Positions 52,776 to 57,083 of a stretch of DNA of 64,000 nucleotides are shown one piece after another. Within the stretch, counting starts at the first letter, position 1. Every line of letters starts with the position of its first letter. The position numbers and the translations under genes are program-made. Source of the stretch: Deltaproteobacteria bacterium (GTDB taxonomy: Bacteria > Myxococcota_A > UBA9160 > UBA4427); contig JAJDAN010000032.1 of the NCBI GenBank assembly GCA_029261855.1, forward strand, positions 248,001 through 312,000. The letters run 5' to 3'. The notes under the pieces are model-generated. The model worked only from the letters and a program-made list of their open reading frames with translations, searched no databases and had not been told where the DNA came from.

Positions 52776-53753
52776 TCAGTCGACGGGGGTGAGGGGGGAG
52801 CGGCTCTTGACCAGCTCGAGGGGTTTGCCGGCGGGGATCGGCACCCAGCCGACCGAGAAGCCGGCCTCTTCGGCGATGCGCCGCGCCTCGAGGTAGACCT
52901 CGAAGCTGTCGCCCCAGACGTAGAAGTAGATGAAGTGCTTCTGGGGGTCGATCTCGGCGAGACGCGCGCGAAGTGCGGCGCGGGGCGACTGCAGTTCCTC
53001 GGGGGTCTCGCCGATGTCGAGGCGCCGCCAGTCCAGGCGGTGGACGAGCCCGTCGGCGCTCTCGGACACCCGCCAACGCAAGAGCTCGTTGCCCACGTCG
53101 TACGATGAGAAGTAGCGGTCGAGGGGGCGCGGCGCGCTGCGAACCACCGTGTCGAGCTCGCGGCTCAGCTCTGCGAAGCGCGGGTCGAAGGCGCGGCCGT
53201 AGCGGCTGAACCAGACGAGCTGCTGCGCGGCCAGGGGCGCGGGGCGCGGGTCGGGTAGGCGCACGGCGATGCTCTCCTGCTCGGCGCGAGCTTCGCTCTC
53301 GGCCAGCAGGATCCGCAGGTTCACCAACTTCTGCTGGCCGTCGTCGAGTGAGGCCTCGAGGTCGCGTAGCTGCATGCGCTGGCGGGCGACGTCGGCCGCG
53401 ACCGATGCGGTGCTCGACGCGCTCGCGGTCGTGATCGACAAGGCGCGCAATTCGCGCAGGTGTTCGCGCAGGCGTGCCAACTCGAGGCTGCGCTCGAGAT
53501 CCACGCCCGCGGCGGCGGCCAGGCGGCTGTCGGCTTCGCTTCGCTCGGCGCGCAGCTGCACGGCCTCGTCGCTTTCCCAGATCTGGATCCGCTTCATGGC
53601 GTCGTTCACGGTCAGCTGGATCACCGCCATCAACACCACGAGGATGCCCACCACGTTGGCCATGGTGTCGAGCAGGGAGTCGACGTTCTGGCCGGTCGCA
53701 CCCGCCGAACCTCTCCCGCCGCCGCGAGCGCCTATGGGGACGCGCCTTCTCAC
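52776..53753 (-). CDS. TolR/ExbD-like single-pass coiled-coil protein C (novel stator system)
   Basis: A 325-residue inner-membrane protein. Basic/glycine N-terminus, then DSLLDTMANVVGILVVLMAV (helix at about 30-49) with two aspartates (26, 29) at its edge, like the proton-site aspartate of TolR/ExbD/MotB. A coiled coil spans about 65-150; a C-terminal alpha/beta end reads HFIYFYVWGDSFEVYLEARR and WVPIPAGKPLEL, similar in pattern to the end of the preceding protein B. No OmpA-type peptidoglycan domain. GTG 53753 overlaps the stop of gene B. Function unknown; see the neighbouring TolQ-like gene. Confidence 0.7.
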   Translation of the reverse strand: MRRRVPIGARGGGRGSAGATGQNVDSLLDTMANVVGILVVLMAVIQLTVNDAMKRIQIWESDEAVQLRAERSEADSRLAAAAGVDLERSLELARLREHLRELRALSITTASASSTASVAADVARQRMQLRDLEASLDDGQQKLVNLRILLAESEARAEQESIAVRLPDPRPAPLAAQQLVWFSRYGRAFDPRFAELSRELDTVVRSAPRPLDRYFSSYDVGNELLRWRVSESADGLVHRLDWRRLDIGETPEELQSPRAALRARLAEIDPQKHFIYFYVWGDSFEVYLEARRIAEEAGFSVGWVPIPAGKPLELVKSRSPLTPVD

Positions 53754-54508
53754 AGCAGGAACTCCAGGGTGCCCTGGCTCGGCAGCGGAAGCTTCGCGTG
53801 GCGGACATAGAGTCGCTCGCTGCGTCTGACCGCCCACATGTAGGTGTCGACGCCGTCCGGGCGGATCAGGTAGACGACGGTGCCGTCGCGGACGGTGCGC
53901 ACCTGCTGCAGGAAGGCGGTGAAGCGCGCGACGTCATCCAGGTCTCCCCGGGCCAGGTAGTAGGAATCCTGCAGGTCCTCGCGCCAGACGCGAACGCCTT
54001 CGGGCCGGCACTCGACGAAGAAGGGCTGCAGCGGGCGCGAGCTGCCGTGGGGCAGGATGCGTATCGGGCGGCTCTCGTCGTCGGGCCGGTCCCGCACCAG
54101 GCGTGCCTCCACGCCGAGGATCGAGCCGCTGACCTGGTCGCGTTCGGCTTCGAGCTGTGCGATGCGCCGCGCCAGCTGCGAAGCGCTGCGACGGGTGTCG
54201 ACGGCGCGCCTGCGTTCGGGCTCGCTCTGGTCGGGCGCGACGCCGAGGGCGCGCAGCGCCGCCTGGGCGGCGACGAGCTCTTCTCCGAGATTCTCCGTGT
54301 CTTCGAGGCTCGCCTCCGCTGCCCGCAGCTCGGCGCGTTCGGCCTCGAGCCGCGCGAGCTGCGCGGGATCGACGTCCCCTTCGAGCAGGCTCTCGGCAAC
54401 CTGGCTGAGGGCAAGCGCGGCGATCAGCAGGGTGAGGGTGCCGATCACGCAGGCCAGGACGCTGAGGAACGGAAACAGCGAAGAGTCGGAATCGCGCCGA
54501 CGGCTCAT
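53750..54508 (-). CDS. TolR/ExbD-like single-pass coiled-coil protein B (novel stator system)
   Basis: A 252-residue protein: cytoplasmic RRRDSDSS, one helix (LFPFLSVLACVIGTLTLLIA, about 11-35) without an internal aspartate, a coiled coil of about 100 residues rich in Glu/Ala/Arg (ARLEAERAELRAAEASL onward), and a C-terminal domain ending TVVYLIRPDGVDTYMWAVRR then HAKLPLPSQGTLEFL. That ending parallels protein C residue for residue in pattern (Y/D..YL..R...P.P.G..L), suggesting duplication. ATGA overlap with the TolQ-like gene and GTGA overlap with gene C. Confidence 0.7.
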   Translation of the reverse strand: MSRRRDSDSSLFPFLSVLACVIGTLTLLIAALALSQVAESLLEGDVDPAQLARLEAERAELRAAEASLEDTENLGEELVAAQAALRALGVAPDQSEPERRRAVDTRRSASQLARRIAQLEAERDQVSGSILGVEARLVRDRPDDESRPIRILPHGSSRPLQPFFVECRPEGVRVWREDLQDSYYLARGDLDDVARFTAFLQQVRTVRDGTVVYLIRPDGVDTYMWAVRRSERLYVRHAKLPLPSQGTLEFLL

Positions 54509-55653
54509 CTCTTCGCGCCGAGCTTCGCCCCCAGGGCTTCGATGCTGTGGGCGAGCTTCGCGATCTGGTCGTGAAGCGCGCGGGCGGAGGACGCATCGAG
54601 GCCGTTCCCGGGCCCTGCACCCGAGGCGGCATCCTGCAGCCGCCGGCCCAGGTGCTCGTCGCAGTAGGCGTCGACCCGGGTCAGGAAGTCTTCCTCCGCC
54701 TTCTGCAGCGAGCTGGTCGGGAACATGATGAGGATGCTCATGACGAGCGCGAGCAAGGTGGTGTCGAAGGCGACGCCGAGACCCGTGGTCACGGTTCCGA
54801 TCGATTGCTTCATGACTTCGAGGTCGACCGCCTGGGCGACCGAATCGGAGAAGCCCGCGACCGCGGCGCTGATGCCGACCACGGTGCCGATGAAGCCCAG
54901 CAAGGGGATCGCCCAGATGAAGACCCGGATCATCGTGTAGCTCGACTCGACTGCCTGGGCGTCGAGCTGCGACTGACCCACCAGCTGGTCGACGGCGTCC
55001 TGGCTGTCACCGCGCATGCGGAAGCGTTCGAGAGCGCGGTCGATCCGCTCGACGAGGAAGCTGCGCGAGGCGGCGAGTGCAATGCCCCCGGCCGTCGGAA
55101 GCCCGGCCCGCGGCAGCTCGCGCGAAGCGACCTCGTGCAGATGCTGCTGGAAGACTGCGGCGTTCTCCGGCGTGATGCGCGCGTCGATGGCTTCGGGCAG
55201 CAGCTCGAGAGCGAGCGCGCGCCGCTGGGACGACAACAGCCAGGCCTTCACGCCGAGCAGGAGTGCCGCCCAGAAGGACAGCCAGGTGATGACGTACGGC
55301 ACCCAGCCCCGCGACCCGAACAAGTCGCCGAAGTAGCTGCCCGCCAGGGGCTGCACGACGACCAGGTAGAAGAAGACCGTGAGGACGACCGCGCCAGCAC
55401 CGGTGACGCGCATGCCCACGTCCGCCGGCGAGCGGGCGAGTACGGTCTCCGCACCTGCCGTGCGTGCGCCACTGCCTGTCAACGACGGCGGCTTCGGGCT
55501 GGCGAAGGAACGGTCGCAGTGCGCGCAGTCGACGATGGTCCCGGCACCGCCCGGTCCTTGGCGCTTCGGGTTCGATCGCCCGCAGTGGGGGCAGTTGACT
55601 TCTCCGGCGCTGCTGGATGCGTCGCGGGGCAGCGTCGTCGCTCCGTCGGTCAT
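54505..55653 (-). CDS. MotA/TolQ/ExbB-like proton channel protein with N-terminal zinc ribbon
   Basis: A 382-residue inner-membrane protein. Cysteines 21/24 (CPHCGR) and 43/46 (CAHCDR) form a zinc ribbon; helices lie near 81-101, 118-140, 244-268 and 290-311. The last two carry the MotA_ExbB signature, AIPLLGFIGTVVGISAAV and SIGTVTTGLGVAFDTTLLAL. A coiled tail follows. It heads a three-gene unit with two single-pass partners, an arrangement like stator or Tol/Exb motors, but the zinc ribbon, the two dissimilar partners and absence of any TonB, TolA or OmpA module set it apart. Confidence 0.85.
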   Translation of the reverse strand: MTDGATTLPRDASSSAGEVNCPHCGRSNPKRQGPGGAGTIVDCAHCDRSFASPKPPSLTGSGARTAGAETVLARSPADVGMRVTGAGAVVLTVFFYLVVVQPLAGSYFGDLFGSRGWVPYVITWLSFWAALLLGVKAWLLSSQRRALALELLPEAIDARITPENAAVFQQHLHEVASRELPRAGLPTAGGIALAASRSFLVERIDRALERFRMRGDSQDAVDQLVGQSQLDAQAVESSYTMIRVFIWAIPLLGFIGTVVGISAAVAGFSDSVAQAVDLEVMKQSIGTVTTGLGVAFDTTLLALVMSILIMFPTSSLQKAEEDFLTRVDAYCDEHLGRRLQDAASGAGPGNGLDASSARALHDQIAKLAHSIEALGAKLGAKR

Positions 55654-55760: not shown

Positions 55761-57083
55761 TTGCTGGATCGCAGTCGCGCGCTCCAGATCCTCGGGCTTT
55801 CCGAGAGCGCCGACGAAGCCGAGATGCGCATTGCGTATCGCGCGCTGCGCGCGCATGTCGAGGTGCGTGCGAACCGCGTCGAGGGCGACGCTCGGGACGC
55901 GCGCCTGGACGAGCTGCGCGACCTCGAGCGCGCCTGGCGGGCCCTGTCCTCGCTGCCGGTTCCGACAGGGGTCATCCAACCCTTGCGCCCTCCACGCGCG
56001 TTCGGACTGACGCCGCGTTGGCTGCTCGCGTGGGCGCTGCTGGCGACGGTGGTCGCAGCGGGGCTCACCGTACAGCTGTTGCAGGGTGCGCTGGGAGCGG
56101 GACCGCGAGTGTTGGTGGAGGGATCCGGAGGTGGAGGCGAGGGCGGTTCCGGCGGCTTTGCGGTCGCGGGTGCGGGCGAGGACGACGCGGACGCCGCCGG
56201 CGGGGCGGCCGACGTCGAAGACGCGGGTCCCCGCGCCCGGCTCGTCGCCCCGGCGAACGTCGAGGGCGCCACCCTGGTCGTGCGCAGCCGCGACGAGAAC
56301 GCCGGGGAAGCGGACGCCGCCGCGATGATCGAGGGGGCCGCGGACGACACAGTCTACTGGCTGGCACCCGGCGACTACAGGCTTGCGGTCCGACACCCCG
56401 ACTGTCGCGACGTCTGGGAAGAACGGCTCTCGCTGGTCGGCAACGAAGACCTGAAGCTCGCACCTGAGGTATGCAAGGAGACCGGCTGGATGGTGGTCCA
56501 GTCGAACGTCGCCCCGGACGCGCTCAGCATCGACGGCCGGGCCGTCGGCTCGACGGGCGAACGCAAACATCCGGTGCCGTCCGGCGAGCACACCGTGCGG
56601 GTGGAGAAGCCGGGCTTCCTGGCCTGGGAGGGCATCGTCGCCGTCGATGCCGGTCAGGTGCTCGGCATCCGACCCCGACTCGAGCCCGCCGAGAAGGCGC
56701 AGGCCGCGAAGCCGCCGGCTCCTCCGCCCGCGACGGGCGCATCCCCCAGACCCGTCCAGGTCGCAGCGGCGCGGCCGAAGTCCACCCAGCGCGACGGGCT
56801 CGACCGTGAGGACACCGAGTGGCACGAGGAGGCCCAGCGTTGGCTGCTGTCTCGCTACGACTTCGACCGGTCCGGCGCGCTCGACTCCCGCGACGAAGTG
56901 GACGCGGTGCCTTGCGAGCATTGGCTGGGGCTCGAGCAGTCGTACGATCAGAGCCGGCTCGGCCTGCCGCTGACCCGCTTCTACGGCTTCGACGGCAGCG
57001 GTTGGAGGTCGGGTGCGCTCGGCGTTTCCGACGACGCGCGCGATCTGGCGTACCAGCGCATGCAGTCCTGCGGCCTCCGCTAG
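55761..57083 (+). CDS. J-like/PEGA/EF-hand membrane protein
   Basis: A 440-residue protein. TTG 55761 is chosen because AGGAGG lies seven bases upstream. Residues 4-64 look like a J-domain (SRALQILGLSESADEAEMRIAYRAL) but lack HPD. A transmembrane helix spans about 87-108, then a glycine-rich segment, a PEGA-like pair (LAPGDYRLAVRHPDC and ALSIDGRAVGSTGERKHPVPSGEHTVRVEKPG), a proline-rich linker and a C-terminal region with an EF-hand-type loop DFDRSGALDSRDE. It ends DLAYQRMQSCGLR. It is divergent from the TolQ-like operon by 107 bases and probably belongs with it. Confidence 0.75.
   Translation: MLDRSRALQILGLSESADEAEMRIAYRALRAHVEVRANRVEGDARDARLDELRDLERAWRALSSLPVPTGVIQPLRPPRAFGLTPRWLLAWALLATVVAAGLTVQLLQGALGAGPRVLVEGSGGGGEGGSGGFAVAGAGEDDADAAGGAADVEDAGPRARLVAPANVEGATLVVRSRDENAGEADAAAMIEGAADDTVYWLAPGDYRLAVRHPDCRDVWEERLSLVGNEDLKLAPEVCKETGWMVVQSNVAPDALSIDGRAVGSTGERKHPVPSGEHTVRVEKPGFLAWEGIVAVDAGQVLGIRPRLEPAEKAQAAKPPAPPPATGASPRPVQVAAARPKSTQRDGLDREDTEWHEEAQRWLLSRYDFDRSGALDSRDEVDAVPCEHWLGLEQSYDQSRLGLPLTRFYGFDGSGWRSGALGVSDDARDLAYQRMQSCGLR

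Follow-up and report, generated by a model that had tools for sequence, protein, structure and literature searches.

Motor models of the 5:2 type assume a pair of identical B subunits, which alternate as proton carriers. The locus analysed here, in a window of 64,000 nucleotides from a member of the Myxococcota, places two different B-like genes behind a single gene for a MotA/TolQ/ExbB-type channel subunit. Do these three genes encode a motor, and what part would two unlike B subunits play in it? An initial annotation, made from the sequence alone, had read the locus as a stator with a split B subunit.

A channel gene and two partner genes in one cluster

The three genes, which we call A, B1 and B2, are joined by 4-nt stop/start overlaps (ATGA between A and B1, GTGA between B1 and B2). 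The coupled start of B2 is the GTG at 53753, while the mechanical open reading frame begins further upstream, at 53837. Three overlapping minus-strand genes had been annotated at this place, and both their coordinates and their strand were correct (Table 1).

Table 1. Positions of the triad, its notable sites and the divergent neighbouring gene, in window coordinates.
Feature	Position	Strand	Description
A	54505..55653	-	MotA/TolQ/ExbB-type channel subunit, 382 aa; PF01618, 1.1e-8
Zinc-ribbon-like CxxC..CxxC, A N-terminus (C21, C24, C43, C46)	55516..55593	-	four Cys kept in ~70/81 homologues
A D297-T298-T299, last TM helix	54757..54765	-	T299 falls in the pore-Thr column of ExbB-type proteins
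B1	53750..54508	-	single-pass partner, 252 aa; predicted TM helix, helical hairpin and TolR/ExbD-like C-terminal domain
B1 Ser16 in SLFPFLSVL	54461..54463	-	proton-carrier position; 59/59 Ser
B1 C-terminal domain, residues 156-252	53753..54043	-	top PDB match TolR 5by4
B2	52776..53753	-	single-pass partner, 325 aa; GTG start overlaps B1 stop; B1 paralogue
B2 Asp29 in NVDSLLDTMANVVGIL	53667..53669	-	predicted proton carrier; 58/58 Asp; aligns with the ExbD Asp, weakly, above shuffles
B2 C-terminal domain, residues 222-325	52779..53090	-	homologous to the B1 C-terminal domain by hhalign
PEGA neighbour	55761..57083	+	divergent gene, 440 aa; PF08308, 8.6e-12; candidate fourth component in the window's clade

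Hydropathy indicates four hydrophobic segments in A, as in MotA, with transmembrane (TM) helices predicted near residues 79-108, 117-140, 239-270 and 290-314. The match of A to the Pfam model PF01618 scored 35.3 bits (cut-off 22.9), the second weakest among the 13 MotA_ExbB proteins of its own genome. The annotated combination of a MotA_ExbB channel with a CxxC..CxxC ribbon is borne out by this match and by the retention of the ribbon in homologues, and those homologues that do not have all four cysteines are mostly cut or gapped at that place. A contains the pore signatures of MotA/ExbB proteins (P250, G253, G256, T257 and T298/T299), and the pore threonines T257 and T298/T299, positioned by alignment with ExbB-like proteins of the same genome, are conserved. 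Two residues ahead of the pore threonine T299 is D297, an acid that is special to the triad family and was unseen in the genome's own ExbB proteins. In our set of 80 loci (see below), the search pattern itself accounts for part of the conservation of D297/T298/T299. Alignment A1 is free of this bias, as its 19 sequences were retrieved without searching for D297-T298-T299, and D297 is invariant in them.

Predicted fold and paralogy of B1 and B2

Hydropathy shows a single hydrophobic segment in each of B1 and B2. AlphaFold2 models of B1 (mean pLDDT 88, alignment of 59 sequences) and B2 (mean pLDDT 82, 58 sequences) predict a common plan in which a TM helix is followed by a long helical hairpin and then by an alpha/beta domain at the C-terminus, in agreement with the annotation of both as single-helix coiled-coil proteins. 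The C-terminal domains of the two proteins gave an hhalign score of 46.0, the highest score among 60 block-shuffled controls being 17.2. The similar C-terminal stretches that had been pointed out in the two partners fall in the same register of this alignment. On the strength of this profile comparison, the C-terminal domains are homologous and B1 and B2 are paralogues.

The initial annotation had also singled out these domains for comparison with ExbD/TolR. For the C-terminal domain of the B1 model, Escherichia coli TolR (5by4) ranked first in Foldseek (probability 1.00, E 8e-3) and gave a Z score of 8.2 in VIA, with 2.3 A across 81 residues. ExbD was the next closest, and ExbD 8pek reached Z 6.2, to be read against Z 7.1 for the best unrelated match. 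The modelled B1 domain is thus TolR/ExbD-like. The match list for B2 was filled by its helical hairpin, and its C-terminal domain consequently had no independent structural match.

Neither partner matched Pfam ExbD (PF02472) up to E=1, and ExbD was absent among the families listed for 58 relatives of B2. Searches of Pfam, NCBIfam, PADLOC and PHROGs returned no meaningful family match for B1 or B2, with coiled-coil noise at most, and coiled-coil noise was all that a sequence search of the PDB gave for them. The two proteins therefore belong to no named Pfam or NCBIfam family. The TM helix of B2 compared with that of ExbD scored slightly above shuffled controls (24.0 and 23.1, respectively) and the TM helix of B1 did not exceed its controls, which leaves descent from ExbD proper likely, if unproven by sequence.

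Among named subfamilies, A scored best against ZorA (PADLOC ZorA2, 5.9e-5; NCBIfam ZorA, 9.3e-5 and 21.6 bits, far under the 100-bit cut-off; ExbB2, 0.014), and a weak match to ZorA was also its sole relative by sequence in the PDB. The triad shares with ZorAB and MotAB a PF01618 channel beside a single-pass partner, and these scores would fit a Zorya-like anti-phage stator. However, the B subunits of ZorAB and MotAB end in an OmpA-type domain, which had been reported as missing here and for which neither B1 nor B2 gave a Pfam match up to E=1. Proteins of the TolR/ExbD type normally lack an OmpA domain. B1 and B2 also have no ZorB match and no noteworthy PADLOC match, the neighbouring genes are housekeeping-like by inspection, and the triad is broadly inherited within families. 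We set aside a role in Zorya-like defence on these grounds as extremely improbable.

The triad is a conserved unit across several phyla

When GTDB species genomes were scanned with the alignment of A, 406 relatives were obtained, of which the best 80 were retained. In 73 of these 80 loci A, B1 and B2 are contiguous, in the same order and on one strand, and B1 adjoins A in 76. The loci belong to Myxococcota, Planctomycetota, Verrucomicrobiota, Kiritimatiellota and Lentisphaerota, together with a few otherwise labelled MAGs. The planctomycetes Rhodopirellula rubra and Neorhodopirellula pilleata are carriers of the triad. Five of the seven non-contiguous loci (L041, L057, L058, L060 and L114) run into the end of a contig or of the stored stretch, and L109 and L117 are orphan copies of A that have no adjacent B1 or B2, the genome of L117 carrying a full triad elsewhere. 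The co-occurrence of the three genes, for which the initial annotation had proposed a search, is therefore that of a real conserved unit.

Among 61 related genomes, B1 was found in 26 and B2 in 26, with the three genes adjacent and their order kept wherever the contig permits. Convincing B2 matches inside the window's phylum are confined to two families. Matches to the B2 profile in many Myxococcota (E ~1e-4) reflected the coiled coil only and were discarded. A tree of A splits a Myxococcota clade, which includes the window, from a PVC clade. Horizontal transfer was weighed, and no direction is claimed because root support in this tree is modest to low and its branches are long. PVC genomes also contain sister subfamilies of the A-B1-B2 triad (L175-L184), in which the acid site of B1 is occupied by Ala or Asp. 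Four of these sister triads (L180, L181, L183 and L184) have a B1 open frame of 626-968 aa, and low-complexity stretches were noticed in L181.

An invariant Ser/Asp asymmetry at the proton-carrier position

At the helix edge of B2, D25 and D29 in NVDSLLDTMANVVGIL are both invariant (58/58). B1 has the stretch SLFPFLSVLAC, of which P13, F14 and S16 are invariant in all 59 sequences, and an alignment of the B1 and B2 profiles places S16 opposite D29. The annotated restriction of helix-edge aspartates to one partner is thus a fixed difference, with D25 and D29 in B2 whereas B1 has an invariant Ser16. In the column of B1 S16, the sister triads L180, L181, L183 and L184 have Ala (FPFLAV), while L175, L176, L178 and L182 have Asp (FSFQDI, FAFQDI). 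As these PVC triads align with the B1 HMM ungapped at this point, the position of the column is settled. Asp is kept in all of the B2 partners inspected in sister triads.

A pair of B subunits with one acid between them is not special to the triad. The window's own genome has 13 MotA_ExbB genes and 10 ExbD genes and contains three more A...B-B sets (C31, C70 and C4). Asp in one ExbD is paired with Asn at the same place in the other in the C31 and C70 types (IDVV/INVV and MDVF/LNLM, respectively), and in the C4 set both ExbD proteins have Asp. Asp/Asn pairs of this kind, in this genome and its relatives, show that a one-acid heterologous B pair recurs. In loci L164-L171, which comprise C31, C70, C4 and their relatives, an ordinary ExbB-type gene has two ExbD genes next to it, one of which often has Asn for Asp. 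These sets resemble the triad in their A-B-B layout, and differ from it in that their B subunits are short PF02472 proteins whereas B1 and B2 are longer and fall outside PF02472.

Two B subunits are also found in AglRQS, the gliding motor of Myxococcus xanthus, in which one MotA/TolQ-like and two different TolR/ExbD-like subunits are encoded in one cluster, as in the triad (PMC3169522, PMC9389320). A match to PF02472 is recorded for both AglQ and AglS (PMC3169522), and the two are said to keep the aspartate (PMC9389320). B1 and B2, by contrast, match neither PF02472 nor any other family, have long helical hairpins, and include a Ser in B1. Heterologous tolR-like pairs have further been reported from the PVC group (PMC12204202). 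The premise of the initial annotation, a single B type in every known system, was thus too strong, as it is contradicted by AglRQS, by the PVC pairs and by the three further sets in the same genome. Its reading of the locus as a split-B stator stands insofar as a TolQ/ExbB-like channel is accompanied by two paralogous B types with the acid in B2 only.

The asymmetry admits a main rival reading in which the axles are homodimeric. A5(B2)2 would then be the motor, and B1 would either join A in a complex that is separate or regulatory, or act as a brake by competing for the pore. As B1 has no acid, A5(B1)2 could be non-conducting, and for AglQ and AglS a recent review openly calls the choice between hetero- and homodimer unknown (PMC9389320). 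The fixed gene order, the 4-nt overlaps at this locus and the presence of B1 and B2 together in every complete locus nevertheless suggest equal production and joint use of the two proteins, and we consider homodimeric axles with a non-conducting or regulatory B1 unlikely.

Genes adjoining the triad

A divergent gene for a PEGA-domain protein is separated from A by a 107-nt gap. Its product has an N-terminus that looks J-domain-like by eye, one TM helix near residues 85-106, the PEGA domain and an EF-hand-like loop (DFDRSGALDSRDE). Within the window's family, the gene matches the triad exactly in distribution, both being present in 24 of 30 genomes and missing from the other six, and it lies divergently beside A wherever the contig permits. 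It is absent from G053 and G057, the triad carriers of other families in the sample, and no copy was found next to the PVC triads. The co-occurrence could be due in part to shared ancestry. The PEGA protein would be the best candidate for output or load sensing in this Myxococcota clade.

No fourth gene is common to triads across phyla. The other neighbours vary by group (UvrD-like, AMP-binding, sulfatase, NuoF and AI-2E), which suggests that the triad is self-contained. A gene of ~700 aa lies downstream of B2 at about a dozen Myxococcota loci (L045, L047, L048, L049, L051-L055, L084 and L088) and not in the window; in the one scanned, L047, it encodes a UvrD-like helicase. Behind one sister triad lies a gene for a 701-aa protein that has ankyrin repeats and, at its N-terminus, a zinc ribbon (L175:6682-8784). 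The 106 ORFs neighbouring triads contained 110 families, and neither vWA nor TPR ranked among the 25 commonest. In this the triad would differ from the vWA transducer class of the PVC group, in which vWA/TPR genes lie beside the motor. The two have in common that they occur in the PVC group and that a TolQ-like gene is accompanied by two heterologous TolR-like genes (PMC12204202).

No conserved outer-membrane or TonB/TolA-like transducer adjoins the triad, as would be the case if it were an ion-gated sensor or regulated channel, its ribbon and periplasmic domains signalling the state of the envelope while protons pass A with no mechanical output. The cytoplasmic ribbon of A and the EF-hand-like loop of its clade partner fit such a sensor. 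We nonetheless judge it quite improbable, given that the pore signatures are kept, that B2 has an acid, and that the long stalks and TolR-like domains match known mechanical systems.

A proposed motor with a heterodimeric axle

The reading that we favour, and think probable, is that A, B1 and B2 form a motor of the 5:2 type, driven by the proton motive force in the manner of ExbBD, TolQR and MotAB, with a B1:B2 heterodimer as its axle and a single proton carrier. The complex would have a 5:1:1 stoichiometry, with five A subunits forming a wheel and one helix each of B1 and B2 forming the axle inside the pore. Protons would be moved past the threonine ring of A by Asp29 of B2, causing rotation, and B1, as the paralogue that has lost the acid (Ser16), would be the passive half of the axle. 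The two helical hairpins would space the paired TolR-like domains off the membrane, at peptidoglycan depth, where these domains would take hold of peptidoglycan or of an output protein. A candidate for that output, or for load sensing, in this Myxococcota clade is the divergent PEGA/EF-hand-like protein, and the zinc ribbon of A may have a role as well.

This motor is supported by the PF01618 match and pore signatures of A, the persistence of the triad in 73 of 80 loci, the homology of B1 and B2, the TolR-like C-terminal domain of the B1 model and the invariance of D29 and S16. The Ala or Asp in B1 that accompanies Asp in B2 of sister triads, and the Asp/Asn ExbD pairs beside ExbB in this genome and its relatives, also count in its favour. 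Counted against it are the position of B1 and B2 outside the Pfam ExbD model and the comparisons with the ExbD helix, in which the B1 helix did not rise above shuffles and the B2 helix barely did. The triad has in common with TolQR and ExbBD a PF01618 channel, a TolR/ExbD-like C-terminal fold (B1) and a helix-edge acid (B2), and differs from them in that they have one B type, a short linker and no zinc ribbon.

Systems with two B types are already known, namely AglRQS and other ExbD pairs. What is new here is a B1/B2 family that has no name and is widely spread, together with its invariant Ser/Asp asymmetry and a PEGA/EF-hand-like neighbour that co-occurs with the triad in 24 of 30 family genomes. 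We found no paper on the A-B1-B2 triad in the literature searched, in which subscription journals and preprints are thinly covered. Tentatively, such triads may be widespread rotary stators with an obligate B1:B2 axle and a single Asp, the acid having been lost repeatedly in one partner, and with a calcium-binding PEGA protein as the output in Myxococcota.

If the proposed motor is correct, it would give a class of function to a B1/B2 family of Planctomycetes, Verrucomicrobia and Myxococcota that is unnamed in Pfam and NCBIfam. The triad bears on the same heterodimer question that a recent review calls open for AglRQS (PMC9389320). With a single proton carrier instead of two, a turn would take, for example, 5 rather than 10 protons. 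A deeply conserved natural motor in which one B subunit always has Asp and the other always Ser would put the need for two carriers to the test.
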